Origin: an uncultured Alphaproteobacteria bacterium
Lineage (GTDB): Bacteria > Pseudomonadota > Alphaproteobacteria > Geminicoccales > Geminicoccaceae
NCBI GenBank assembly: GCA_937926445.1
Contig: CALBAK010000013.1
Span: forward strand, 1-61,054
DNA: 61,054 nt
Reading direction: 5' to 3'
Positions 515-43,648 of this stretch are shown piece after piece; position 1 is the first letter of the stretch, and each line of letters starts with the position of its first letter. The notes beneath the pieces were generated by a model, which saw only the letters and a program-made list of their open reading frames with translations, was not told the origin of the DNA and searched no databases. The position numbers and the translations under genes are program-made.

Positions 515-1351
515 ATGCGCGATCCGAGGGCCCTCGGGACCGAGGCGGGGGCGGCGGCGCTCGAGGCGCGGCTGCTCGCGGCCCTCGCTGCCGCCGGCCG
601 CGATCCGAACCGCCTCCAGCCGGCGGATCTCGCCGGCATCGACGCGCTGCATCTGGGTGGAGCGGCGGCGAGTGCGAAGCTCCTCGAGCGGCTGCCGCTC
701 CGCCCGGGCCTCGCGATCCTCGACATCGGCTGTGGCGCGGGCGACACCGCCCGGCTCCTGGCCGAACGCGCCGAGGCCTTCGTGCTCGGGATCGACCGCG
801 ATCCGCTCCTGCTCGCCTTGGCCCGCAGGCTCGCCGCACGGGTCGGCCTCGCCGAGCATACGGCCTACCTACGGGCCGACGCCCTCGCCCTGCCCTTCGC
901 CGACTCGAGCTTCGACGGCGCGGTGAGCCTGCACCTTTCGATGGCCGTGGCCGCGAAGGCGGAGCTCTGGGCCGAGGCCTTCCGGGTGGTCCGCCCCGGC
1001 GGCTTCCTCGGCCTCTACGACGCGGTGGCCGGGCCGGCCGGTGCGCCGCTGCGCTATCCCACCCCCTGGGCCGAGAGCGCGGCCGCGAGCTTCGTGGAGA
1101 ACCCGACCGAGACCCGCGCCGGGCTCGAGCGGGCGGGGTTCCGGGTCGAGACCGAGCTCGACCTCGGCGAGCTCGCCCGCGAAGGGCTCCAGCGGCTGCG
1201 TGCCCGCCTCGATGCCGCGCCCGATCCGGCGCGTGTGCCGGGCCCGCATCTCCTCATGGGCCCCCGCTTCGCCGAGAAGCTCGACAATGTCGCCCGCGCG
1301 CTCGCCGAGGGGCGGCTGCGAGCGATCGCGTTCCTCGCCCGCAGGCGCTGA
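515..1351 (+). CDS. Class I SAM-dependent methyltransferase
   Basis: A 278-residue protein with a Methyltransf_11-type Rossmann domain. Motif I is [14 protein letters not shown] (about residue 70), the acidic residue after strand 2 is in GIDRDPLLL, and motif III is [13 protein letters not shown], followed by [14 protein letters not shown]. This layout is typical of small-molecule methyltransferases (ubiquinone/menaquinone or secondary-metabolite type). Nothing in the sequence fixes the substrate. It stands alone on the plus strand. Its TGA forms half of the hexamer TGATCA, whose other half is the stop of the convergent ccoS, so the two genes abut with no spacer. Confidence 0.85.
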
Positions 1352-1519
1352 TCAGCCGGCCCGCGGCCGGTCCTCGGGCTCGTCGTCGTCGAGCAGGATC
1401 CGCTGGGCGGCGCCGTCGAGATCGTCGAACTGGCCGGACTTGAGCGCCCAGACGAAGGCGGCGAGGCCCAGAAGCCCGAGGAAGAGGGCGATCGGGATCA
1501 GATAGAGAAGCCCGCTCAC
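1352..1519 (-). CDS. ccoS: cbb3-type cytochrome oxidase assembly protein CcoS
   Basis: A 55-residue protein starting at GTG (1519-1517). It has a single transmembrane helix (SGLLYLIPIALFLGLLGLAA) followed by the family-typical WALKSGQFDDLDGAAQRIL, ending in an acidic tail. CcoS is needed to insert haem and copper into the CcoN subunit of the cbb3 oxidase. It is the last gene of ccoG-fixH-ccoI-ccoS; its GTG overlaps the ccoI stop in the tetranucleotide GTGA, implying translational coupling. Length and motif match the family. Confidence 0.92.
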   Translation of the reverse strand: MSGLLYLIPIALFLGLLGLAAFVWALKSGQFDDLDGAAQRILLDDDEPEDRPRAG

Positions 1520-3801
1520 GCGCTCGCTCCCGCGAGCCGGGTATCGGCCTTCGCCGGCGTCGAGCTCGACTCGGCTCGGCGAGCCCCGAGCTGGAGGCGG
1601 AGCGAATTGCCGACCACCAGGAGCGAAGAGGAGGACATCGCGATCGCCGCCACGAGCGGGGTGACATAGCCCAGCACCGCGAGCGGTACGGCGCAGAGAT
1701 TGTAGGCGATCGAGAGCGCGATGTTCTGGCGGACCAGCCGCTCGGCGCGCCGCGCCACCTCGAGCACCTCGAGCACGGGTGCGAGCCGCTGGCCCTGGAA
1801 CACGGCATCGGCAGTGGTCTGCGAGACGTCGACCGCGGACGCGGGCGAGAGCGAGACCGAGGCGGCGGCCAGCGCCGGGGCGTCGTTGAGCCCGTCACCG
1901 ACCATGAGGACCCGCCGGCCCTCGCGCGCGAGCGTCTCGAGCCGCGCCACCTTCTCGTCGGGCGCGAGCTCGGCCGCCCAGCGCCCGATCCCGAGCCGGT
2001 TCGCCACCGCCTCGACCGTCGCCCGCCGATCGCCCGAGAGGAGCTCGACCGAAAGGCCGCGGGCGCGCAGCGCCGCCACGACCTCCGCCGCATCGGGTCG
2101 CAGGGGATCGGCGAAGCGGAACCGCACGGGCGGCCGACCGGGCCGGGCGAACCAGAGCTCCGCCCCGGGCCGCCCGTCCTCCTCGACCTCGGCCGCGAAG
2201 CCGCGCCGGCCGAGCCGCCATTCGCCCTCCGGGCTCGAAAGCCGCAGGCCCTGCCCGGCGACCTCCTCGACCCCGGCGGCGGCCGGACCCGGTCCGGCCG
2301 CAGCAGCGAGCGCCCGGGCGAGCGGGTGGCGCGAGGCGCGGGCGAGGCTCGCCGCGGCGTCGAGGTCCTCCGCCCCGCCGCCCTCGATCGCCTCGAGCGC
2401 CATGCGGCCGCTGGTGAGCGTGCCGGTCTTGTCGAACACCACCGTGTCGACCCGGGCGAAGCGCTCGAGCGCAGTCGCCGATTTGACGAGCGTGCCACCC
2501 TTCATGAGCCGGCCGGCGGCGATCACCTGGACGGCCGGCACGGCGAGGCCGAGCGCGCAGGGGCAGGTGATGATCAGGACCGCGATGGCACTCATGATGG
2601 CGAAATGCCAGCCCGCCCCGGCGACGAGCCAACCGGCGAGCGTGAGGGCCGCGAGCGTGTGGACGAAAGGAGCGTAGAGCCGGGCGACCCGATCGGCCAG
2701 GGCCACGAAGCGCGAGCGGCGCTGCTCGGCCGCCTCCATGAGGCGGACGATCTCGGCCAAAAGCGTGCCCTCGCCGACCGCCGCCACCCGTACCCGCAAA
2801 GGTGCCCCGAGATTGAGCGTGCCGGCGAAGACCCGCACACCCGGCTCGACCGGCTGCGGTACCGTCTCGCCGGTCACGAGGCTCGTGTCGAGCTCGCTGC
2901 GGCCGGCCACGACCTCGCCGTCGACCCCCACCCGCTCGCCCGTGGCGACCAGGATCTCCTGGCCCGGCTCGAGGCTCTCGGGCCGCACCGGCCGGGTCGT
3001 GCCGTCCGGTTCGATCCGGCTCACCGCCTGGGCCCGGAGCGCGAGCAGCCGAGCCGCGGCGGCGCGCGCCGCCCCGCGCGCCCGCCGGTCGAGATAGCGG
3101 CCGATCAACAGGAAGAAGAGGAGGGTTACGGCACTGTCGAAATAGGCGTGCTCGCCCGCCCGGATCGTCTCCACGAGACTCACCGTCGGCGCCAGGATCA
3201 CCGCCAAGGAGATCGGCACGTCCATGTTGGTCCGGCCGCGGCGCAGCGCGGCAAGCGCCGAGCGGAAGAAGGGCCGGCCCGCGAAGGCGATGGCCGGCAA
3301 GGCGATGAGCGCCTGGAACCAATGGAGGAAGGTCCGGGTCGCCTCGCCCATGCCGGTGAAATGACCGGACCAGACCGAGACCGCCAACAACATGATGTTG
3401 CCGGCCGCGAAGCCCGCCACCGCGAGGCAGAGGAGGAGCTCCTTCTCGGCCGCTGCATCCGCCCCCTCGAGGCGCGACGGATCGAACGGCACCGCCCGAT
3501 AGCCGAGCCCCTCGACGGTGGCGACGATCTCCGACGCCCGCGCCGGGTCGCCCTCGAAGGCAACCGCGAGGCGCCGGGTCGTGAGGTTGACCCGGGCCTC
3601 CTTCACCCAGGGAAGCCTGCCGAGCGCCCGCTCGATCCGCCGGATGCAGGCGGCGCAGTGCACCCCTTCGACGACGAGGTCGAGACGCAGGAGCCCGTTC
3701 TCGGGATCGACTCGCACGAAGGGTGCCGGCTCGAGCCCCGGCTCGCCGGGCTCGGCCGCACGCCCGGGCAGCGGACAGGCGGCGGAAACGGGCGCACTCA
3801 T
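1516..3801 (-). CDS. ccoI: Copper-translocating P1B-type ATPase CcoI/FixI
   Basis: A 761-residue P-type ATPase that supplies copper for cbb3 oxidase assembly. In order: a heavy-metal-associated domain with the metal pair in GVHCAACIRRIE (cysteines 49 and 52), transmembrane helices, the actuator TGE, the membrane metal site CPC in ITCPCALGLAVP, the phosphorylation site DKTGTLTSG, and the hinge MVGDGLNDAPAL. The start is the ATG at 3801-3799, which overlaps the fixH stop as ATGA; further upstream codons in the same frame lie inside fixH and are not used. Context in the ccoG-fixH-ccoI-ccoS cluster separates it from the copper-efflux ATPase CopA. Confidence 0.95.
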   Translation of the reverse strand: MSAPVSAACPLPGRAAEPGEPGLEPAPFVRVDPENGLLRLDLVVEGVHCAACIRRIERALGRLPWVKEARVNLTTRRLAVAFEGDPARASEIVATVEGLGYRAVPFDPSRLEGADAAAEKELLLCLAVAGFAAGNIMLLAVSVWSGHFTGMGEATRTFLHWFQALIALPAIAFAGRPFFRSALAALRRGRTNMDVPISLAVILAPTVSLVETIRAGEHAYFDSAVTLLFFLLIGRYLDRRARGAARAAAARLLALRAQAVSRIEPDGTTRPVRPESLEPGQEILVATGERVGVDGEVVAGRSELDTSLVTGETVPQPVEPGVRVFAGTLNLGAPLRVRVAAVGEGTLLAEIVRLMEAAEQRRSRFVALADRVARLYAPFVHTLAALTLAGWLVAGAGWHFAIMSAIAVLIITCPCALGLAVPAVQVIAAGRLMKGGTLVKSATALERFARVDTVVFDKTGTLTSGRMALEAIEGGGAEDLDAAASLARASRHPLARALAAAAGPGPAAAGVEEVAGQGLRLSSPEGEWRLGRRGFAAEVEEDGRPGAELWFARPGRPPVRFRFADPLRPDAAEVVAALRARGLSVELLSGDRRATVEAVANRLGIGRWAAELAPDEKVARLETLAREGRRVLMVGDGLNDAPALAAASVSLSPASAVDVSQTTADAVFQGQRLAPVLEVLEVARRAERLVRQNIALSIAYNLCAVPLAVLGYVTPLVAAIAMSSSSLLVVGNSLRLQLGARRAESSSTPAKADTRLAGASA

Positions 3802-4292
3802 CGCAACACCAACCGCTCGCTCACGACCAGTATCTCGTCGCCGCGGACGAGCCGCAGCCGCGCCTGCCATTGCCCCGCCGGCAGCGCGCCGAGGGCCGCC
3901 CGGTAGAGACCGGCGCCCACCGCCTCGAGGCGGAGCTCGCGCTCGGCACCCGGTTCGAGCGGCCGCTCGAGCCGGCCCTCGACCCGAAGACCCGAAAGGG
4001 GCGCGCCTTCGCGATCGCGCGCCTCGAGGAGGAGCTCGCGCCCGCCCTCGCCGCTCGTTCGGGCGACGAGCCGCGTGCTCCATCCGAGCGCCGCCATGGC
4101 GGCCGCCGCCTCGAGGTTGCGGTTGTAGGCGATGCCGCGGTCGTAGGGTCGCTCGGTGACGAGCCCGGGCCAGGTCGAGGCGGCGAACCAGATCATGACG
4201 CCGTTGACCGCCACGACGAGCAGGAAGCCCGCGAGGAAGGTCCAAGGGATCCACCAGCCGGGCGGCCGTCCGCGCGACACCGCCGCCCTCAC
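3798..4292 (-). CDS. fixH: FixH/CcoH family protein
   Basis: A 164-residue membrane-anchored protein with one N-terminal helix (IPWTFLAGFLLVVAVNGVMIW) and a periplasmic domain. The domain carries family features such as TERPYDRGIAYNRNLEAAAA and a C-terminal beta-rich part ending QWQARLRLVRGDEI. FixH/CcoH stabilises early cbb3-oxidase assembly intermediates and cooperates with CcoI. The start is taken as the GTG at 4292, which forms a GTGA overlap with the ccoG stop. The stop overlaps the ccoI ATG as ATGA, so all four genes of the operon are coupled this way. Confidence 0.9.
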   Translation of the reverse strand: MRAAVSRGRPPGWWIPWTFLAGFLLVVAVNGVMIWFAASTWPGLVTERPYDRGIAYNRNLEAAAAMAALGWSTRLVARTSGEGGRELLLEARDREGAPLSGLRVEGRLERPLEPGAERELRLEAVGAGLYRAALGALPAGQWQARLRLVRGDEILVVSERLVLR

Positions 4293-5746
4293 CGCTTGGG
4301 TCCCCGGAAGGTCGAGACGAAGCGACGGCTCTCGCCGCTCGCCACGTCCGTGAGCACGAAGGTCAGGTCCATGCTCTCCCCACTCACCGTCGCCCGCGGC
4401 AGCTTGAGATAGATCCGGTGCGTGCCGACTCCGTCGGGCGGCGCCTCGAGCAGGAGCCCGGTCCGCTCCGCCTGGTCGCCCGCGAGCTGCAGCCGCGCGC
4501 CCGGAGCCCCCTCGACGACGAGCTCGTAGGTCCGCGGCTGCCGTTCCATGTTGAGGATCTTGAAGGTGTAGCCGTTGCGGATCGAGCCGTCGGCGAGCTG
4601 GACGTACAGCGGGTTGCGCTCGGGCAGGATGTTGACCTCGGTGGTCCGCCGCAACAACAGCGTCGAGAGCATCACCGCGGCCACCACCACGAGCACCGTG
4701 GCGTAGAGGACGGTACGCGGCCGCACCAGGCGATAGACCGGCGGCTTCTTCGCAGCCTTGAGCTCCAGGTTGCGCTCGCTGTCGTAGGAGATCAACTTCG
4801 GCGGCCGGCCGATCTTCGCCATCACGTCGTCGCACGCGTCGATGCAGAGGCCGCAACCGATGCACTCGAGCTGGAAGCCGTCGCGGATGTCGATGCCCAT
4901 GGGACAGACCGCCACGCACTGGCGGCAATCGATGCAGTCGCCGCGACCCTCGAAGCTCTGGCCCTTCTTGTACTTGCCGCGCGGCTCGCCGCGCCAGGCC
5001 TCGTAGGAGACCGCCATCGTGTCCTGGTCGACGAGTGCGCCCTGGATCCGCGGCCAGGGACACATGTAGGTGCAGACCTGCTCGCGGGCGTGCCCCGCCA
5101 AGAGATATGTCGTGAAGGTGAACAAACCGAAGAAGAAGTAGACGGCGAAGCTCGCCTGGCCCGTCAGGATTTGGCGCACCACCGTGGGCGCGTCGTTGAA
5201 GTACATGATCCAGGCACCGCCCGTCGCCGCGGCGATCAGGATCCAGGCGGTGTGCTTGAGCGCCTTCTTGCCGATCTTGGCTCCGGTCCAAGGCTGCGCG
5301 TCGAGCCGGATGCGCTCGCCCCGGTCGCCCTCGATCAGCCGCTCGACCCACATGAAGAGATCGGTCCACACCGTCTGCGGGCAGGCGAAGCCGCACCAGA
5401 GCCGGCCGAAGAGCGCGGTCGCGAGGAACAGGCCGAAGGCCGCGAGCATCAAGATGCCGGTGAGATAGTAGACCTCCTGCGGCCAGATCTCGATCCAGAA
5501 GAAGTAGATCCGTCGGGTCTCGAAATCCGCTAGGATGGCCTGTCCCGGGGCACCCGGCCCGCGATCCCAGCGGATCCAGGGCGCGACGTAGTAGAGGCCG
5601 AGCAGCACCAGGAGTGCCGCCCACTTGATCCGGCGGAAGGTGCCGTGCACGCTCTTGGGATAGACCTTGACCCGTCCGGCATAGAGCGGCGAGGCCTTCT
5701 GCTCGGTCCGCGAAAGCGCGTCCTGATATTCGGCGACGTCGCTCAT
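4289..5746 (-). CDS. ccoG: cbb3 oxidase accessory ferredoxin CcoG/FixG
   Basis: A 485-residue polyferredoxin-type membrane protein. The N-terminal half has several transmembrane helices with conserved FACPQTVW and YMCPWPRIQ segments. The middle carries two 4Fe-4S clusters (CIDCRQCVAVCP and CIGCGLCIDACD), and the C-terminus is a periplasmic immunoglobulin-like domain. CcoG is linked to copper reduction for cbb3 oxidase assembly. The ATG at 5746 is preceded by a GAGAGG-type ribosome site and gives MSDVAEYQDAL, the normal family start; an in-frame extension to 5848 would cover the FixK box and is rejected. It is the first gene of the operon. The structural genes ccoNOQP, often just upstream, are not there. 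Confidence 0.95.
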   Translation of the reverse strand: MSDVAEYQDALSRTEQKASPLYAGRVKVYPKSVHGTFRRIKWAALLVLLGLYYVAPWIRWDRGPGAPGQAILADFETRRIYFFWIEIWPQEVYYLTGILMLAAFGLFLATALFGRLWCGFACPQTVWTDLFMWVERLIEGDRGERIRLDAQPWTGAKIGKKALKHTAWILIAAATGGAWIMYFNDAPTVVRQILTGQASFAVYFFFGLFTFTTYLLAGHAREQVCTYMCPWPRIQGALVDQDTMAVSYEAWRGEPRGKYKKGQSFEGRGDCIDCRQCVAVCPMGIDIRDGFQLECIGCGLCIDACDDVMAKIGRPPKLISYDSERNLELKAAKKPPVYRLVRPRTVLYATVLVVVAAVMLSTLLLRRTTEVNILPERNPLYVQLADGSIRNGYTFKILNMERQPRTYELVVEGAPGARLQLAGDQAERTGLLLEAPPDGVGTHRIYLKLPRATVSGESMDLTFVLTDVASGESRRFVSTFRGPKR

Positions 5747-5812
5747 GCCTTCGCCTCTCGGTGCCGCACCGGCGCGGCGCCCGCCTTCTACGAGCCGGAT
5801 CGTGCCCATGCC

Positions 5813-5826
5813 TTGATCTGCCGCAA
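5813..5826 (-). promoter_or_regulatory. FixK/FNR-type box upstream of ccoG
   Basis: TTGATCTGCCGCAA (plus strand) reads TTGCGGCAGATCAA towards ccoG and fits the alphaproteobacterial FixK/FnrN/Aadr consensus TTG(A/C)-N6-(G/T)CAA. Its centre is about 73 bases upstream of the ccoG ATG. If it acts at the usual -41.5 position, transcription would start about 30 bases before the gene. Low-oxygen activation of cbb3 maturation genes by this regulator class is well established. Confidence 0.7.
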
Positions 5827-5991
5827 GTCCGAAATCTCGTATGCACATCAGCTTAGGACGGGCTCGCCGGTCCGGCCTGTGACCGATCCGCGCGCGCGAC
5901 CGCCCGTCGCTCCTCCTCGGTTCCTGGATGCTTGACTTTTATCCTCTATTACTGCACATGATCCCGAGCGTCCGCAGCGAGGAGCCGCCCC

Positions 5992-6984
5992 TTGCCCACC
6001 CCCGGCCCCGCCCCCTCCCACGCCGACCCCGCCGCCCGCCGCGCCGGCCCCCACACGGTCGAGGGCAAGGCCCGTTCCGCCCTCAACGCCCTGCGCCACG
6101 GCCTCAGGGCCGCCCGCTTCACCCTCCTCCCGCACGAAGACGCCGAGGCCTTCCGCGAACTCGTCGAGGGTCTCCGCCTCGCCCATGCCCCGGACGATCC
6201 GGTCGAGCTCCTCTATGTCGACGCGATCGCGGTCGCGATCTGGCGCGAGCTCCGCGTCGATCGTCTCGAGGCGGAGATCCTGGCCGACATCGCCCCGGCC
6301 GAGCCCGGCCGCAGCTGCGGCAGCGACCTCGCCGAGCCCGCCGCCCGCGCGAGCCTCGCCACGATCGCCCGCTATCGGGCCGCCGCCCAGGCCGAGCATC
6401 GCCGCGCCTTGAAGCTCCTCGAGGAATATCGCCGGCTGCGCGGCGAAGCGCTCGACCGGGCGGCCCTCGGCGGCCGGCCCGACGCGCTCGCCGACCTGCC
6501 GACGGTCGAGATCACGGCCCCCGAGCCCGAACGCGTGAGCCTGCGCGATCGGGCCCGCGAGGAGGGTGCGGCGCGCGAGCGCATCCGGCTTCGGGCCACG
6601 GAATTCGCGGGCCTCGGCGCCGCCGCCCTGGCCGATCTGTTCGACGGGCTCCCGACCGCTCCGTTCGCGACCGTGCGAGCGTCCGCTTCGCCCGACCATG
6701 CGGCGGCCGATCCCACGACCTTCGAGGCGGCGTCTGCCGGGACCGGACAGCCCTATCCCCGGCCCTCGGACCCCGCACCGTCCGATCCCGAGCCGTCCGA
6801 TCGCGCGGCCGCGGGCCACGATCGAGCGGCTCCCGCGGCCCGCGGCCCCGACGGCCGGGGCCCCGACCATCGGCCCGAGAGCACCGCGGGCCTCGACCCG
6901 ATCGCCCACGCCCGGCTCCTTATCGACCGCTGGCTCGAGGAGCACCCGGACGGGGTGGCTCCCGGCCGCCGCCGGGTCGCCTGA
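5992..6984 (+). CDS. Uncharacterised protein with a 'GKARSALNALRHG' N-terminal motif
   Basis: A 330-residue cytoplasmic protein with no catalytic motif that I recognise. Residues about 20-75 carry a conserved block (EGKARSALNALRHGLRAARF, then ED..AF..LV..L). Residues 70-100 read PVELLYVDAIAVAIWRELRV, rich in conserved hydrophobic and charged positions. This block occurs in a widespread family of hypothetical proteins in GC-rich bacteria. The rest is Ala/Arg/Glu-rich helix, and the last ~100 residues are Pro/Ala/Asp-rich low complexity (repeated PSDPEPSD-like units). The start is a TTG at 5992 with GAGGAG about 6 bases upstream. An AT-rich stretch at 5935-5960 may be its promoter. Confidence 0.6.
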   Translation: MPTPGPAPSHADPAARRAGPHTVEGKARSALNALRHGLRAARFTLLPHEDAEAFRELVEGLRLAHAPDDPVELLYVDAIAVAIWRELRVDRLEAEILADIAPAEPGRSCGSDLAEPAARASLATIARYRAAAQAEHRRALKLLEEYRRLRGEALDRAALGGRPDALADLPTVEITAPEPERVSLRDRAREEGAARERIRLRATEFAGLGAAALADLFDGLPTAPFATVRASASPDHAAADPTTFEAASAGTGQPYPRPSDPAPSDPEPSDRAAAGHDRAAPAARGPDGRGPDHRPESTAGLDPIAHARLLIDRWLEEHPDGVAPGRRRVA

Positions 6985-35874: not shown

Positions 35875-37602
35875 ATGACCGTCTTCACCCCGCCTCTTGA
35901 CGAAATGCGGTTCGTGTTGCGGGCGCTCGCCGAGGTCGAGAGCCTCGCGAGGCTGCCCAGCCTCGCGCACGCCACCCCCGACCTGCTCGATGCCGCGCTC
36001 GAGGAGGCGGGGAAGTTCGCAGCCGAAGTGCTGGCGCCGCTGAACGCGGTCGGCGACCGGCACGGTGCGGTCCTCGAGAACGGCGTGGTCCGCACCGCGC
36101 CGGGCTTCAAGGCGGCCTACGAAAAGTTCCGCGAGGGCGGCTGGATGGGGGTGGTGTTCCCCGAGGCCTATGGCGGGCAGGATCTGCCCTGGACCTTGAA
36201 CACCGCCTTGGCCGATCTCTGGAACGCGGCCAACACGACCTTCGAGCTCTGCCCCTTGCTGACCCAGGGGGCGGTCGAGGCGCTCCTCCACCACGGCAGC
36301 GAGGAGCAGAAGGGGCTCTACGCGACGCGGCTCATCGCCGGCACCTGGACGGCCGCCATGTGCCTGACCGAGCCGCAGGCCGGCACCGATCTCGGTGCTC
36401 TGCGCACGCGTGCCGAGCCGCGCGACGGGCACTTCCGGCTCTTCGGGCAGAAGATCTTCGTCACCTTCGGCGACCACGACATGGCCGAGAACATCGTCCA
36501 TCTCGTGCTCGCCCGCCTACCCGACGCACCGCCCGGCACCCGCGGCATCTCGCTCTTTCTCGTGCCCAAATATCTGCCGGAACCGGACGGCCGGCTCGGG
36601 CTTCGGAACGACTGGCGGATCCTCAAGCTCGAGCAGAAGGTCGGCATCCACGCCTCGCCCACCTGCGTGGTGAGCTACGGCGAGAGCGAGGGTGCGGTGG
36701 GCTTCCTCGTGGGCGAGCCGAACCGCGGCCTCGCCAGCATGTTCACGATGATGAACAATGCCCGCTTGGCGGTCGGGCACGAAGGGCTCGGCCTCTCCGA
36801 GCGCGCCTTCCAGGCCGCGCTCACCTACGCCAAGGGACGAATCCAGGGGCGGATCGACGGCCGGCCGGTGCCGATCGCGGCCTATCCGGACGTGCGGCGG
36901 ATGCTCGTGCGGATGCGCGCCCAGATCGCTGCGATGCGGGCGCTCTGCTATTGGACCGCGAGCTTCGTAGACCGGGCCGCTCGCGCCGCCGAGCCCGGGG
37001 AGCGGCACCGGGCGAGCGAGCGGGTGGCGCTGCTCACGCCCATCGTGAAGGCCTGGTGCACCGATCTCGCCCAGGAGATCACCCATGCCGCGATCCAGGT
37101 CCACGGCGGCATGGGCTTCGTCGAGGAGACCGGGGTCGCCCAGCACTGGCGCGACGCCCGCATCCTGCCGATCTACGAGGGCACCAACGGCATCCAGGCC
37201 CTCGATCTCGTGGGCCGCAAGCTCGCGATCGCCGACGGACGGCTTCCCTGGGAGCTCGTGGGGGAGCTGCGCCTCGACCTCGAGACGGTGCCGGGCGAGC
37301 TTCGCCTCGTGCTCCGCGAGGCTCTCGAGCGGCTCGAGGCCGCGACCCGCTACGTGCAGGCGGCGGACGAGGAACATCGCGGGGCGGCGGCTGCGGCATA
37401 CTTGCGGCTTTTCGGCCACACCCTCGGGGGCTTCCTCCTCGCGCGGGGTGCCCGAGCGGCGCTCGCCGGGGCCGAGGGCGGCAGCACCTGGCCGGGTCTC
37501 GCGCGCTTCTGGTGCGCGCACGTCCTGCCCGAGACGCTGGGCCTTCTCGCGAGTGTGCTGGCCGGCGCCGAGGGGCTCGAACCGGCGCTGCTCGAGGGCT
37601 GA
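35875..37602 (+). CDS. Acyl-CoA dehydrogenase (large, DmdC/FadE-like subfamily)
   Basis: A 575-residue flavoprotein, longer than the ~390 of classical acyl-CoA dehydrogenases. It has an extra N-terminal segment and a C-terminal extension (LRLVLREALERLEAATRYVQ onward). The core is typical: AMCLTEPQAGTDLGALR, MFTMMNNARLAVGHEGLGLS, IQVHGGMGFVEETGVAQHWR, and the catalytic Glu in ILPIYEGTNGIQALDL. The subfamily includes 3-methylmercaptopropionyl-CoA dehydrogenase (DmdC) and FadE5-like enzymes; which acyl chain it uses is open. It starts 24 bases after the lipoprotein gene. Confidence 0.9.
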   Translation: MTVFTPPLDEMRFVLRALAEVESLARLPSLAHATPDLLDAALEEAGKFAAEVLAPLNAVGDRHGAVLENGVVRTAPGFKAAYEKFREGGWMGVVFPEAYGGQDLPWTLNTALADLWNAANTTFELCPLLTQGAVEALLHHGSEEQKGLYATRLIAGTWTAAMCLTEPQAGTDLGALRTRAEPRDGHFRLFGQKIFVTFGDHDMAENIVHLVLARLPDAPPGTRGISLFLVPKYLPEPDGRLGLRNDWRILKLEQKVGIHASPTCVVSYGESEGAVGFLVGEPNRGLASMFTMMNNARLAVGHEGLGLSERAFQAALTYAKGRIQGRIDGRPVPIAAYPDVRRMLVRMRAQIAAMRALCYWTASFVDRAARAAEPGERHRASERVALLTPIVKAWCTDLAQEITHAAIQVHGGMGFVEETGVAQHWRDARILPIYEGTNGIQALDLVGRKLAIADGRLPWELVGELRLDLETVPGELRLVLREALERLEAATRYVQAADEEHRGAAAAAYLRLFGHTLGGFLLARGARAALAGAEGGSTWPGLARFWCAHVLPETLGLLASVLAGAEGLEPALLEG

Positions 37603-37856: not shown

Positions 37857-39104
37857 TCAGTCGCGGCGGGTCACCTTGCGGGCGCGGCGGTCGAGGTGGC
37901 GCTCGACCTCGGCGAGCCGGACACCCGCCGCGACGAGCTTGACGAGGGCGAAGTAGAGGAGATCGGCCGCCTCCCAGACGACGTCCTCGCGACCCTCGGC
38001 GCGGGCCAGCTCGTCCGCCTCCTCGCGCAGCTTGGCGGCGAGCAGACCGGGATCGGCGAGGAGCTTCGCCGTGTAGGAGCCTTCCGGAGGAGCCTTCGCG
38101 CGAGCCGCGAGGATCGCCTCGAGACGGGCGAGGCCCTCGGCCTCGCCGAAGCAGGAAAAGCGCTCGAGGTGGCAGAAGCCCGGGCCTTTCTGACGGACCA
38201 GAAAGCGGAGCGCGTCGCGGTCGCAGTCGAGGTCGACGCGCACGAGCTCCTGGGTGGCGCCGCTGGTCTCGCCCTTCACCCACAGGCCCCGCGAGCGCGA
38301 CTGGTACACACCCGCGCGCCGTCGGACGGCCTCGCGCAGCGAATCGCGCGAGCTCCAGGCGAGCCCCAGGGCGATACCGCGCTCGTCGACGACCACGGTC
38401 GGGAACAGGCCGTCGGGCCGGTCGGAACGCAGAGGCGCGGCGATGGCGTCGGCGAGGTCGAGCCGGCCGGTGTAGAGCGCCATGCCTACCTGGGCGTCGG
38501 CACCGAGACGGTCGAGGGTGGCGATCTCCTCGGGCGTCGTCACCCCGCCCGCGATCGTGACGCGGCAGGTGGGGCCCGCGGCGCGCACGACCGCCTCGGC
38601 GAGCGTCAGATCGGTGCCGCCGAGCCGCCCCTCGCGCTCGACGAAGGTGACGAGAAAGCCACAGACGAAGTCGCGGAGCTCGTCTATCCGCTCGAGGATC
38701 CCGCGGCCCGTCCCCTTGCGCCAGCCCTCCACCACGACCTCACCGTGGCGGGCGTCGAGAGCGGCGATCACTCGCTCGCGCGGCAATTCGCGCAGGAGCT
38801 CCGGCCGAGCGGCGGTACCGAGAACGACCTTGGCAGCTCCGCGGTCGAGCCAGCGGCGGGCCGTGGCGAGATCCCGGATACCGCCACCCACCCGGCAGGC
38901 GAAGCCGGCATCGAGCAGGCGCTCGATCAGCACCGCATTGGAGCCGCGCCCCATGGCGGCGTCGAGGTCGATCACGGCGATCTCGCCCGCCACGGCGAAG
39001 TGTTCGGCGATCGGCAGCGGATCGCCCGCCTCGAGCGCCAGCGTCTCGCCGCCCACGAGCTGGACGGTCTGGCCATCCCGGAGGTCGATCGAGGGGACGA
39101 TCAC
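37857..39104 (-). CDS. hisA: Fused HisA-HisI-HisE histidine biosynthesis protein
   Basis: One continuous 415-codon frame with three enzymes. Residues 1-225 are HisA (ProFAR isomerase): [10 protein letters not shown] carries catalytic Asp7, [15 protein letters not shown] the second Asp (117), and [12 protein letters not shown] a phosphate loop. Residues ~235-320 are HisI (PRA-CH): [44 protein letters not shown] and [12 protein letters not shown], with metal cysteines 294, 311 and 318. Residues ~325-415 are HisE (PRA-PH): [11 protein letters not shown] and [12 protein letters not shown]. HisI here resembles the N-terminal part of fungal HIS4 more than bacterial HisI. HisA resembles the Thermotoga-type variant (DxxxGxVxxxGW) rather than the usual alphaproteobacterial form. 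The GTG start overlaps the hisF stop as GTGA. Confidence 0.88.
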
Positions 39105-39853
39105 GGCCGCACCGGCACGCCACGGGCGGCGAGGAACCGCTTCACTTCCCCGACCGTCCGATCGCCGTCGTGGAAGATCGAAGCGGCGAGCACCGCGTCG
39201 GCTCCGGCCTGGAGCGCCTCGAGGAGATGCTCGGGCGTGTCGGCGCCGCCCGAAGCGATCACCGGAACGCGGACCGCGCGGGCGACCGACCGAGTGAGAG
39301 GGAGGTCGTACCCGGCCCGGGTTCCGTCGCGGTCCCAGGAAGTCAACAGGATCTCGCCGGCTCCGCAGCGCTCGCCCTCGCGGGCCCACTCGACGGCGTC
39401 GCGCCCGGTACCCTCGCGGCCGCCCTTGACCAGCACTTCGAAGCGGCCGTCGCGCAGCGCCGCGTCGATCGCGAGCACGCAGCACTGGCGACCGAAGCGC
39501 GTCGCGATCTCGCCGAGCAGTGCCGGTCGCTCGACGGCCGCGGTGTTGATAGAGACCTTGTCGGCCCCCGCCTCGAGCAGCCGCCAGGCGTCCTCCTCGC
39601 TGCGGATGCCACCACCCACGGTGAGCGGGATGGCCAGCACCTCGCGAACCCGCCGGACGGTCTCGATCTGGTGGCATCGCCCCTCGGGGGTCGCCGAGAC
39701 GTCGAGGATCACGATCTCGTCGGCGCCCTGCTCCTCGTACAGCTCGGCCCGTTCGGCCGGATCGCCGGCATCCCGCAGGCCCTGGAAACGGATGCCCTTT
39801 ACCACCCGGCCGTGGCTCACGTCGAGACAGGGAACGATCCGTCGCGCCAGCAT
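39101..39853 (-). CDS. hisF: Imidazole glycerol phosphate synthase subunit HisF
   Basis: The 250-residue TIM-barrel cyclase half of IGP synthase. It has the catalytic Asp in [17 protein letters not shown] and the second in [15 protein letters not shown], where E. coli-type enzymes read LTSMDRDGT. SVNTAA-like [13 protein letters not shown] and the phosphate loops [10 protein letters not shown] and [11 protein letters not shown] are present. The ATG at 39853 comes one base after the hisH stop codon. It pairs with HisH, which supplies ammonia. Confidence 0.95.
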
Positions 39854-39854
39854 C

Positions 39855-40454
39855 TCAGGGCGACTCCAGGGCGAGGAAGCGGTCGAGCAGGGCCGCCCCC
39901 CAGCGACCGGACAGCTCGGGGTGGAACTGGCAACCCAGGACCCGCCCCTTCTCGACGGCGGCGAGGAAGCGGCCGCCGTGCTCGCTGCGCGCGCAAGCCC
40001 AACCGGGGGCGTCGACGGCGCGGTAGGAATTGGCGAAATAGGCCCAGCCCGGCTCGACCAGTCGACAGGTGGGCTCGGGTTCGACCAGGTTCCAGCCGAA
40101 TTGGGGCGTGCGCACGGTGGCCGGAAAGCGGCCGACCGTTCCCGGCAGTGCACCGAGCCCGCCAACCCCGGGGCTCTCCTCGCTCGAGGCGAACAGGAGC
40201 TGGTGGCCGACGCAGATCGCGAGGGTGGGCCGATCTTCGGCGATCCGCCGACGGAGCGCCTCGGCGAAGCCCCGACCCATCAGGCGGGCCATGGCGGCAC
40301 CGAAGGCTCCGACGCCGGGCAGCACGACGTGGCTCGCAGCCAGGATCTCGCGACCCCGCTCGGCCAGCCGCACGGTCGCGCCGAGCCGGCGGAAGGCGGC
40401 CGACACGCTCGCGAGATTGGCCGTGCCGGTCGGCACGATCAGCACCTCGGTCAT
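39855..40454 (-). CDS. hisH: Imidazole glycerol phosphate synthase glutaminase subunit HisH
   Basis: A 199-residue class I glutamine amidotransferase. The nucleophile Cys is in [10 protein letters not shown] (usually GICLGMQ), and the His-Glu pair is in [10 protein letters not shown]. The oxyanion region [16 protein letters not shown] is normal. The ATG at 40454 gives [17 protein letters not shown]. Its stop lies one base before hisF. Confidence 0.93.
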
Positions 40455-40505
40455 CGCCGCTCCCCACGGCCGGACAGCCGCCGCATCGCCCTGCCGCACC
40501 TCGCC

Positions 40506-41105
40506 TCAGAGCACGCCCTTGGTGCTCGGCACCTCGGCCGAGCCGTCCGAGGACACGGCCTCGCGCAGGGCCAAGGCGAGAGCCTTGAAGGCCGCCTCGA
40601 CCCGGTGATGGTCGTTCTCGCCGCGCTCGACGTCGACGTGCAGGGCCATGCGGCCGGTCACCGCGAGCGAGTGGAAGAAGTGAGCGAGGCATTCACAGGC
40701 GACCTCGCCGATCCGCTCGCGTCTAAGACCGAGCGCTACCTGTGGCGCCGGCCGGCCGGACAGATCCACGACGACCCGGGCGAGGGCTTCGTCGAGCGGA
40801 GCGAAGGCGAAGCCGAAGCGGCGGATGCCGCGCCGCTCGCCGAGCGCCGCATCGAGCGCGCTGCCGAGGGCGAGCGCACAGTCCTCGACCGTGTGGTGGT
40901 CGTCGACCTCGAGGTCGCCCTCGCAGGTGAGCTCGAGGTCGAAGCGGGCGTGGCGAGCGAACGCGGTCAGCATGTGATCGAGGAATCCGAGACCGGTCGC
41001 GATCTCGCTTCGGCCCGTGCCGTCGAGCAGCATCCGCACTCGGACGGCCGTTTCCCTCGTTCGCCGCTCGACCGCGCCGACGCGGCCCTCGCCCGTGCCC
41101 TGCAA
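40506..41105 (-). CDS. hisB: Imidazoleglycerol-phosphate dehydratase
   Basis: A 199-residue manganese enzyme. The two metal-binding repeats are [15 protein letters not shown] with [16 protein letters not shown], and [12 protein letters not shown] with [16 protein letters not shown]. It is the mono-functional form (no HisNB phosphatase domain). It lies between hisG and hisH, with gaps of 27 and 51 bases. Confidence 0.95.
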
Positions 41106-41132: not shown

Positions 41133-42065
41133 TCAGACGACGATCTGGGCGATGTCGAACACCACGATGTCGGTGCCGCCGCGCTCCTTGATCGCCCGGA
41201 TGAGCTCGGGCAGCTGATGGCGCGGCACGGCGGCCTTGACCGCGAAGCCGGCATCGTGGTGCAGTGGCGCGATGGTCGGCTCGCGCATGCAGGGAAGGAT
41301 CTCGACCACCCGCTCGAGATGCTCCCGGGCGACGTTGACCTCGAGCATCACCCGCTTGCGGGCGTCGAGCACCGAGCGCACGAGCAACGTGAAGTGCTCG
41401 ATGACCGGCCGCTTCCTCCGGTCCTCGAGAGCCCGCGGATGGGCGTAGAGCCGGGTCGAACTGCGCATCACCTCGTCGACCACCACGAGCCCGTTGGCCC
41501 GCAGGGTCGCTCCGGTGGCGGTGTTGTCGACGATGCAGTCGGCGTCCTCCGGCGGGAAGACTTCGGTGGCTCCATAGGAGCGGACGATCCGCGCCTCGAG
41601 CCCGCGTCGGGCGAGCCAGAGGGCGGTCAGTCGTTCGTATTCGGTGGCAACGACGAAGGAGCGCGCCGGCAGCTCGCCGTTCTCGAGGAAACCCGGGGCC
41701 GCCGCCACGACGATCGTCACCGGGTCGAGCCCGGTGTCCACGAGCTCGACCAGCTCGGCCTCGAGCTCCGCCACCCAGTCGGCCCCGGCGAAGCCCAGAT
41801 CGCGCGAGCCGAGATGCAGCATCTCGACGATGTTCTGGGGCTTCAACAGCTTGGCCTCGAAGCCCGGGAGCGAGAGGCTGGGCCGGTAGCCGCGCCGATC
41901 GAAGGAGAGCCGGATCCCCGCGTCGGCGAGGAGTTGGAGGACGTTCTCCTGCATCCGGCCCTTCGGCAGGGCCAGGTGCACGAGTGGTGGAGCGGGCGAG
42001 GCGGCGAGCGGCACGGTGTCGGGGCCGTGGTTGATGGCGGGCGCCGGGCCGCGACGCCTTGGCAC
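41133..42065 (-). CDS. hisG: ATP phosphoribosyltransferase, long form
   Basis: The first enzyme of histidine synthesis, 310 residues. [32 protein letters not shown] and the PRPP loop [20 protein letters not shown] identify the catalytic domains. The C-terminal [20 protein letters not shown], then the [11 protein letters not shown] end, is the ACT-like regulatory domain. It is therefore the long, histidine-inhibited form that does not need HisZ. The start is a GTG at 42065; a downstream in-frame GTG near residue 18 is an alternative. First gene of the operon; hisD and hisC are not in the window. Confidence 0.93.
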
Positions 42066-42139
42066 CCCGCGGCCTCGCTTATAGAGAGCGCCGCGGGCGC
42101 GGTAAAGGCGAGCCGGCGACGGCCGGCCGGGAGCGGTGG

Positions 42140-43648
42140 ATGGCGAATGCGGGCCGCGTGCAGGCGACGATGGGGATCGAGGTCGGCCGCAGCCGAACGA
42201 ACGGGGTGCTGCTCGCCGCCGACGGCCGCGAGCTCGCGCGGGCTTCGGCCGAGCATCCGCCGCTCGTCGCCCGGGGCGCCGTCTGCGAGCACGACCCCGA
42301 GGTCCCTTGGGTGGCGTTTCGCCGCGTGGCGGCTCGGCTCAAAGCGCTGGTCGAGGTCGAGCTCGTGGGACTCGGCCTCGCCGGCGAGGCGGGCGGCCTC
42401 GTGTTTCTCGATCGCGCCGGCGTGCCGGTCCGCCCTGCCGTGGCGGGTGCCGATCGACGGGCGGGCGACGAAGCGCGCGAGCTCGTTCGCCGGTTGGCCG
42501 AGGCCGGCGTGGCACCCCCTCCAGGGCGTCGCCTCGGGCCCTGTCTGCCGGCCGCCAAGATCCTCTGGCTCGCCGCCAACGAGCCCGAGGCCGCGCAGCG
42601 CGTGGCCCGGGTGCTCGCGCCCAAGGACGATGTGCGTCGGCGCCTGACCGGAGAGCTCGCGACCGATGCCGCCGAGGCCTCGGCGACCGGGCTGCTCGAT
42701 CTCGCCGGCCGGCGGTGGAGCGCTCCCGTCCTGGAGGCGCTCGGCCTTCCCGCCGACCTGTTGCCGGAAGTGTTCGAAGGCGCCGACGTCACGGGCCGGG
42801 TGAGCGTGGCGGGTGCCGCCGAGACCGGCCTGCCGGAAGGGTTGCCGGTGGTGGCGGGCGGAACCACGCTCGCCTGCGGAGCGCTCGCCGCGGGCCTGGT
42901 CGCAGACGGCGATGCGCTCGCCTGGTTGGAGCCCGGCGCCGGGTTCCTCGTCCGCATCGGACGGCCGCCGGAGGCGGCCGAAGAGGGGGTCGAGATCCTC
43001 TGCGACGCGACCGGCGGCTTCCATCGAATCGCGGAAGTGCCGATCGCCACGAGCCCGCTCGCTTGGCTCGCCCGCGAGCTCGTTCCCGAATGGGCCCAGG
43101 CGGCCCGCGCCGCCGGTATCGAGCCCGAGGACGCCCTCTTGGGGGAAGCCGCGGGAGCGGAGCCAGGAGCATCGGGCCTCCTCTTTCTTCCGGCCCTCGA
43201 CGGCGCCGCCGGCGACCCGGCCGTGCCCGGCGCCTGGCTCGGTCTGCGGCCCGACCAGCGCCGAGCCGATCTCGCCCGTTCGCTGGTCGAGGGGCTCGCT
43301 GCGGCGCTCGCCGAGCGGACCGCTCCGCTGCGCCACGCTCGCGCCCCGCGCGAGCCGGTGCGGCTGGTCGGTCGCGCGGCGACGGACGCCGCCTGGCGGG
43401 TGCTGCTCGCCGCCAAGCTGGGCCTCGCCCTGACGCCGCTCGAGGCCGGGCTCGACGCGGCCCGGGGAGCGGCGATGTTGGCCGGCGTCGGCGTGGGGCT
43501 CTGGTCCGATCCCGCCGAGGCCGTCGCGCGAGCCGCAGCGCCCGCGGGTCCCGTGGTCGCCGTCGATCCGCAGCTCCACGCCTTCTACCGGGCGCGCGAG
43601 CCCGTGCGGGCTCGGGCTCGGGCGCTTCTCGCCGCACTCGAAATCTGA
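42140..43648 (+). CDS. FGGY-family (xylulokinase-like) protein lacking catalytic motifs
   Basis: A 502-residue protein that aligns by eye with xylulokinase along its length: [40 protein letters not shown] and [11 protein letters not shown] are typical. Key motifs are changed. The N-terminal phosphate loop, normally IDxGTS, is IEVGRS (residues 13-18). The catalytic-base motif GGGD is GGTT (Thr243 in place of Asp). The adenosine loop SLGTSG is WLEPGAG. It is therefore probably a pseudokinase, perhaps regulatory or a binding protein. The ATG at 42140 follows a purine-rich site; divergent from hisG by 74 bases. Confidence 0.75.

Follow-up and report, generated by a model that had tools for sequence, protein, structure and literature searches.

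The window, i.e., the whole 61,054-nucleotide stretch analyzed here (contig CALBAK010000013.1 of an uncultured alphaproteobacterium of the family Geminicoccaceae), contains a minus-strand histidine biosynthesis cluster of five genes in the order hisG-hisB-hisH-hisF-hisAIE, the last of which codes for a 415-residue protein with HisA, HisI, and HisE domains. The first gene, hisG, codes for the long form of ATP phosphoribosyltransferase (41133-42065; TIGR00070, 140.0 bits; TIGR03455, 85.3 bits) and is followed by hisB, coding for imidazoleglycerol-phosphate dehydratase (40506-41105; NF002111, 255.3 bits), by hisH, delimited as an open frame whose true start probably lies further in (39855-40499; TIGR01855, 163.1 bits), and by hisF (39101-39853; TIGR00735, 330.1 bits), the stop codon of which overlaps the GTG start of hisAIE as GTGA. 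Long plus-strand frames flank the cluster on either side (35875-37602 and 42059-43648). The host assembly comprises 3.71 Mb and is 98.6% complete, and hisAIE lies on its contig 13.

The hisAIE gene (37857-39104) is an intact frame of 415 codons running on the minus strand from a GTG at 39104-39102 to a stop at 37859-37857 with no internal stops; the coordinates in the original prediction were thus correct, the strand being minus. From the N- to the C-terminus, the protein shows a HisA (ProFAR isomerase) domain (approximately residues 1-222, 38439-39104), matched by Pfam His_biosynth (PF00977) over residues 2-215 with 139.5 bits (cut-off 23.6); a HisI (phosphoribosyl-AMP cyclohydrolase) domain resembling that of fungal HIS4 (approximately residues 225-321, 38142-38432), matched by PRA-CH (PF01502) over residues 248-319 with 85.8 bits (cut-off 27); and a HisE (phosphoribosyl-ATP pyrophosphohydrolase) domain (approximately residues 322-414, 37863-38141), matched by PRA-PH (PF01503) over residues 326-407 with 73.6 bits (cut-off 21.3). 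Since the NCBIfam HisA model spans residues 2-223 and the HisIE model starts at 225, the linker between HisA and HisI is nearly absent, and frame, Pfam, and NCBIfam together bear out the predicted three-enzyme fusion of 415 residues with hardly any linker, including the presence of the motifs that had been cited for it. The protein misses the NCBIfam HisA equivalog cut-offs (148.7 bits versus 243 and 140.4 versus 228.95), passes only the HisE domain model TIGR03188 among the NCBI models matched, and reaches none of the NCBI whole-protein cut-offs for HisA, HisI, and HisIE, so automatic annotation may miss HisA in such organisms. In the HisI part, D293, C294, D295, D297, C311, H312, and C318 are present in 113 of 113 aligned rows, and the same holds for E361, E362, E365, E378, and D381 in the HisE part (113 of 113); we take the DCDxD and C/H/C residues of the former and the EExxE and ExxD residues of the latter to be metal-binding.

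The further claim that all catalytic residues are present holds for D7, D117, W128, and T153 of the HisA part, which correspond to D7, D129, W145, and T171 of Escherichia coli HisA and are kept in all 60 fused rows, and fails for the catalytic acid: aligned with Asp176 of E. coli and Salmonella HisA is E158 (codon 38631-38633, minus strand). D176 has been described as the catalytic aspartic acid of the Salmonella enzyme (PMC9088769). The position is Asp in E. coli, in 14/14 other ordinary HisA rows, and in 12/12 HisF rows, and Glu in 60/60 fused HisA rows. Further replacements in the fused rows are S202 by Ala (Ala185, 60/60), I223 by Gln (Gln205, 60/60), and R/K226 by Met (Met208, 59/60), and hisAIE carries the entire signature of Glu158, Ala185, Gln205, and Met208. 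The HisA part is therefore atypical, as had been proposed, by virtue of the D176, S202, and R226 replacements; going by the alignment, its active site is altered but strictly conserved. With the catalytic Asp, S202, and R226 replaced, the domain may have lost or altered its activity, and the fused HisA could be envisaged as dead as an isomerase and retained only to scaffold or regulate HisI-HisE, with PRFAR supplied by another enzyme. Such a role would fit the D176-to-Glu, S202-to-Ala, and R/K226-to-Met replacements, and the front region of fungal HIS4 is of unknown function (PMC1963479), so a worn-out domain may be tolerated. However, no fused row that reaches these positions departs from D7, D117, T153, or the Gly-rich sites, a degree of conservation unexpected of a dead scaffold.

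The gene content of the fusion genomes bears on the same question. The His_biosynth matches over the family cut-off in the host genome are one HisF and the fused HisA, with no others, and its sole HisI over the cut-off is that of the fusion. The expectation that no separate hisA, hisI, or hisE exists is thus upheld for hisA and hisI, of which no further copies were found over the family cut-offs, and is contradicted for hisE: besides the fusion itself, two HisE matches exceed the cut-off, of which one (56.5 bits) is a standalone gene on contig C104 and the other, weak at 24.7 bits, lies in a frame of 751 residues. The standalone copy (C104, 3815-4036) scores 76.8 against a cut-off of 42.7 with the NCBI equivalog-domain model for phosphoribosyl-ATP diphosphatase, and because of this second HisE that of the fusion might be redundant; similar standalone matches are also seen in G002, G004, G005, and G015. 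Among 24 fusion genomes chosen from the 80 named loci described below, HisI is single in all 24 (E-value 1e-5 or better), and 20 have only HisF and the fused HisA (His_biosynth, E-value 1e-10 or better), the remaining four having one to three additional His_biosynth proteins each. Given these 20 genomes without another HisA, a functional pathway would require the fused HisA to be active; taken with the lack of another HisA over the cut-off in the host genome, this makes an isomerase-dead domain improbable, and we favor the reading that the altered HisA should be active as an isomerase. A PriA-like double role is not supported as an overall explanation of the unusual active site, since TrpF is present in the host genome and in 20 of the 24 other fusion genomes (21/25 in all), and is possible in the four genomes with no TrpF match (G413, G420, G421, and G422).

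The fusion is nearly fixed in the Geminicoccaceae and is not peculiar to the host genome. Among 30 relatives from the family, 25 have a full-length copy (64-88% identity) and two a partial one (G002 and G030), with a stub at a contig end in G016 and none in G025 and G028. These full-length and partial copies dispose of the concern that a sequencing error had created the fusion, and its presence in 27 of the 30 relatives and in records not marked as MAGs (Arboricoccus pini, Rectinema subterraneum, and Marinimicrococcus flavescens) rules out chance or an assembly artefact; it is also found in the complete genomes Pla86 and Poly30. Of 29 further genomes from the class included in that comparison, just one carries it, and even samples recover it in 11 of 385 genomes of the class, host included, spanning four families, and in one of 398 of the phylum Pseudomonadota, the host itself (E-value 1e-50). 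In Myxococcota, 34 of 150 genomes have HisA-to-HisE matches at an E-value of 1e-100 or better (divided between two contigs in one case), with a domain check covering all but five of the 34; Planctomycetota have 14 of 159 (E-value 1e-80), plus two with HisA-HisI alone; and the phylum to which the Sumerlaeia genome G412 belongs has 7 of 40. These counts are lower bounds and not strictly comparable, since queries and thresholds differ. The distribution between phyla is thus scattered and sporadic. A copy from the phylum of G412 is 73% identical to the 415-residue protein, and the Geminicoccaceae copies outside the host genus are 64-76% identical, many being no closer than that copy.

A scan of named genomes, for which the best 80 of 356 relatives were retained, recovered HisA-HisI-HisE in all 80, with L051 and L104 cut by contig ends; because the first query was a fungal HIS4 sequence, these best 80 of 356 are those most like HIS4. 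They belong to Planctomycetota (23), Pseudomonadota (22), Myxococcota (21), Sumerlaeota (3), Spirochaetota (2), Actinomycetota (1), and Bdellovibrionota (1), with seven unassigned. The commonest gene order around these 80 loci is hisC-hisB-hisH-hisF-hisAIE-hisD, which is exact in 21 and present with overlapping frames in several more, and the hisG-hisB-hisH-hisF-hisAIE order of the host occurs in 11. Several variants were observed. The copies from Rectinema subterraneum (Spirochaetia; L099 and L119) show fused HisA with a lower profile score, 252-253 bits versus at least 315 in the other uncut named loci, and have a Gly-rich insertion after a GG site, yet they too occur with only HisF beside the fused HisA (E-value 1e-10). 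Two frames from the planctomycete sample (L170 and L172, in G593 and G621) combine HisA and HisI and end directly after HisI, with no HisE in frame; they could be precursors of the full fusion or have lost HisE afterwards. A HisA-HisI-HisE gene is also found in a 335-kb putative viral contig (IMGVR_UViG_3300025121_000011, L124), where it belongs to a row of genes at 608-4014 coding for a Ham1/RdgB-like protein, HisG, a SAICAR-synthetase-like protein (weak, 21.8 bits against a cut-off of 20), and the fusion; steps 1 to 4 of histidine synthesis are thus represented next to what may be a purine enzyme. Three neighbors at 4072-6727 returned no Pfam matches, and five proteins of this contig searched against PHROGs, including HisG and HisAIE, returned none either. 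Fungal HIS4 itself was not found in viral contigs, L124 being the only fusion there, and among the 8 matches listed of 608 in plasmid records there are only ordinary HisIE or HisI proteins, 33-38% identical.

Phylogenetic trees of the separate domains, a check proposed with the original prediction, place both parts of the protein outside the ordinary alphaproteobacterial clades. In a HisA tree computed with a quick method, 58 fusions and two HisA-HisI rows form one clade (support 99), which includes the HisA domain of hisAIE, and 15 ordinary rows stand apart (96), among them nine alphaproteobacterial ones (98); on this placement, the fused HisA proteins represent a deep-branching lineage of their own, in which Glu stands for the catalytic Asp. 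For HisI-HisE, 66 of 175 fused rows were kept together with eight joined alphaproteobacterial and two fungal rows, those at least 68% identical to a kept row being left out, and the careful tree was computed without L050, which duplicates L125, and without L154, which is truncated at a contig end. Here 58 fusions and the two fungal rows are separated from 14 ordinary rows with support of 100/99, and the fungal rows lie inside a core of 57 rows (99/92), in which the tree singles out no nearest neighbors for them, with three fusions from the planctomycete sample (L155, L167, and L168) outside it. The careful HisF tree unites the Geminicoccaceae HisF with that of the other fusion operons (98/92), apart from eight ordinary alphaproteobacterial HisF (100/99), and a quick tree recovers the same grouping at 92, not starred; the ordinary rows of these trees comprise the eight alphaproteobacterial and five other sequences and do not include HisF of fusion-free Myxococcota or Planctomycetota. 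The fusion had been predicted to lie within an otherwise normal hisGBHF operon, which these results do not support, as HisF sides with the fusion operons and not with ordinary alphaproteobacterial HisF. The suggested replacement of native genes by a transferred fused gene remains the likely reading for the two parts of the fusion and needs amending as regards its extent, as HisF is of the fusion lineage too. Among the operon neighbors, HisF is the one for which trees were built, and these suggest that hisF and hisAIE probably traveled together; the transferred unit is therefore more likely a hisF-hisAIE block or the operon than a single gene. The fusion could alternatively have arisen from native hisA, hisI, and hisE genes of alphaproteobacteria and then been passed to other phyla, and several alphaproteobacterial families and nearly all Geminicoccaceae do hold it. 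However, besides the position of both HisA and HisI-HisE outside the alphaproteobacterial clades, the deepest fused HisI-HisE rows are the three from the planctomycete sample, and Myxococcota (34/150 at 1e-100) and Planctomycetota (14/159 at 1e-80) have it far more often than Pseudomonadota (1/398 at the laxer 1e-50), which leaves such an origin very improbable.

The affinity to fungal HIS4 was evaluated throughout with two provisional sequences, those of Saccharomyces cerevisiae and Komagataella phaffii. They score 120-240 bits against the fused HisI-HisE (168/168 rows, with some genomes counted more than once) and 67-104 bits against ordinary HisI-HisE (14/14 rows), and both these scores and the tree bear out the predicted likeness of the HisI part to fungal HIS4, within the limits of provisional fungal sequences. 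Taken on this evidence, the HisI-HisE of hisAIE belongs to the HIS4 clade. None of 200 bootstrap trees separates all fusions from the fungi, the bootstrap being not fully settled, and in an AU test a topology that groups the fusions as a single clade without the fungi is retained (p=0.224). Fungal HisIE has also been reported to cluster apart from prokaryotic and plant HisIE (PMC1963479).

In HIS4 the place of HisA, ahead of HisI-HisE, is occupied by an N-terminal region of 160-220 residues, which was described in 2007 as lacking a known domain, function, or relatives (PMC1963479). We propose, with somewhat more confidence than doubt, that this region is a decayed bacterial HisA barrel, and that the hisH-hisF-hisAIE-hisD order, which occurs in the operons of Planctomycetota and Myxococcota, was the template from which further fusion would have produced eukaryotic HIS4 and the giant Acanthamoeba protein considered below. 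Alternatively, fungal HIS4 and the bacterial fusions might share only an unfused ancestor with a HIS4-like HisI-HisE, the N domain being unrelated to HisA. A Pfam search of the fungal region finds no HisA, its two unanchored HisA-profile scores rank only 3rd and 13th when pooled with those of 1000 shuffles (1002 sequences in all), and the AU test allows fungi outside the fusions, all of which would suit an unrelated domain. Comparison of the region to fused HisA with hhalign yields a weak match (probability 6.6% over 31 columns), which also suits it; yet its score of 24.6 was reached by none of 150 permuted controls, albeit narrowly (best control 24.1). In a test anchored on HisI-HisE, much of the gain in which arises at the junction helix, 64 of 1000 shuffles and 66 of 1000 rotations scored at least as high as S. 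cerevisiae, whereas for K. phaffii one shuffle and no rotation did so (1000 of each); the HMMs for these three tests were built without L051, which is cut by a contig end. A BLAST alignment of K. phaffii HIS4 to L013 (residues 65-379, 41%) runs from HisI-HisE into the N-terminal region. Further against an unfused ancestor, the bacterial members of the clade that were examined are all fused to HisA or cut by contig ends, the fungi lie inside the core (99) with no bootstrap tree of 200 separating the fusions, a length of 160-220 residues suits a shortened HisA, and the published description of the Acanthamoeba protein lists ProFAR isomerase just ahead of HisI, HisE, and HisD (PMC6029752). Direct sequence comparisons of the fungal region thus give a mixed picture, and the case for HisA is carried more by two indirect arguments, the HisA fused to the bacterial clade members examined and the Acanthamoeba listing. 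We accordingly regard an unrelated N domain as a doubtful, though serious, alternative to its origin from HisA; an identification of the HIS4 N-terminal domain as HisA was not found in the portions of the open-access literature consulted.

HisD was detected with a model built from the two provisional fungal sequences. Nine Myxococcota matches span four domains, and in four of the 150 genomes HisA, HisI, HisE, and HisD occur in one frame (L125, L129, L132, and L133); the other five have a stop between HisE and HisD (two in L130) within the same reading frame. For the Pfam domain check of the four-domain protein, L050 was used, a second record of the L125 gene. A derivation of the entire fungal HIS4 from such a protein is rejected, as in a quick tree without fragments under approximately 330 residues fungal HisD groups not with the four-domain HisD but with HisD of E. 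coli, Pseudoalteromonas, and Deinococcus (support 100). Fungal HisD being of another lineage, HisD was probably joined independently in fungi and in these bacteria.

Taken together, we consider it very likely that hisAIE codes for a trifunctional enzyme of an interphylum HisA-HisI-HisE family, that it displaced the ordinary hisA and hisI in an ancestor of the Geminicoccaceae, and that HIS4 is of the same family. In the proposed mechanism, the HisE domain would hydrolyze phosphoribosyl-ATP, the HisI domain would open the ring of phosphoribosyl-AMP, and the HisA barrel would isomerize ProFAR to PRFAR; one chain would thereby cover steps 2, 3, and 4, taking up what HisG produces and delivering what HisH-HisF uses, conceivably with channeling. 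The family has probably spread between phyla within a hisH-hisF-hisAIE(-hisD) cluster, the displacement of the two ordinary genes falling in the Geminicoccaceae ancestor. We further suggest, as the somewhat better-founded reading, that fungal HIS4 was derived from the fused family and that its HisA part decayed once fungi relied on a separate HisA gene. That separate gene is HIS6. The fusion family suggests where HIS4, a textbook gene of yeast that also serves widely as a marker, is likely to have come from, and it gives the puzzling front domain of that protein an identity that can be checked. It also places three successive steps of histidine synthesis on a single chain, in which the catalytic acid of HisA has naturally changed from Asp to Glu.

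The closest known counterparts differ in instructive ways. E. coli, with a bifunctional HisIE and a separate HisA, performs the same reactions as those predicted for hisAIE; however, its genes are separate, both parts fall into another clade, and position 176 is Asp rather than Glu. Fungal HIS4, as represented by the provisional sequences, has HisI-HisE of the same clade and in the same order as hisAIE, and shares with it an (S/T)DRPDGL-like stretch at the HisA-HisI junction and a KVTRR ending; it differs in its N domain-HisI-HisE-HisD architecture, the hisAIE frame ending after HisE with no HisD, and in that its N domain, unlike that of hisAIE, is not recognized as HisA by Pfam. Archaeal HisA/F-HisIE fusions are reported from four metagenomic assemblies of DPANN and unclassified archaea (PMC11237513) and, by description only, similarly join a barrel of the HisA/F type to HisIE. 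A 1,682-residue histidine protein of Acanthamoeba is described with IGP synthase/cyclase, ProFAR isomerase, PRA-CH, PRA-PH, HisD, and ATP-PRT listed in that order (PMC6029752); if the listing reflects the domain order, its H, F, A, I, E, D series matches the way genes are arranged in many bacterial fusion operons, although this protein, likened to hisAIE by description only, is eukaryotic and has more domains fused on both sides. Finally, trifunctional PRA-PH/PRA-CH/ProFAR isomerase proteins, i.e., with activities identical to the three predicted here, were noted in one sentence in 2021 for Spirochaetia and some Gammaproteobacteria (PMC8102479), in a study whose similarity network has fungal HIS4 close to Myxococcales and which proposes that HIS4 and the trifunctional proteins share an ancestor. 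As the kinship is thus already in print, and as that account, in the parts consulted, gives neither domain order nor residues nor operon, names no members from alphaproteobacteria or planctomycetes, and does not mention the HIS4 N domain, the trifunctional class and its kinship to HIS4 were already known, and what is new here is the distribution, the active-site signature, the operon, and the reading of the HIS4 N-terminal region as a remnant of HisA.
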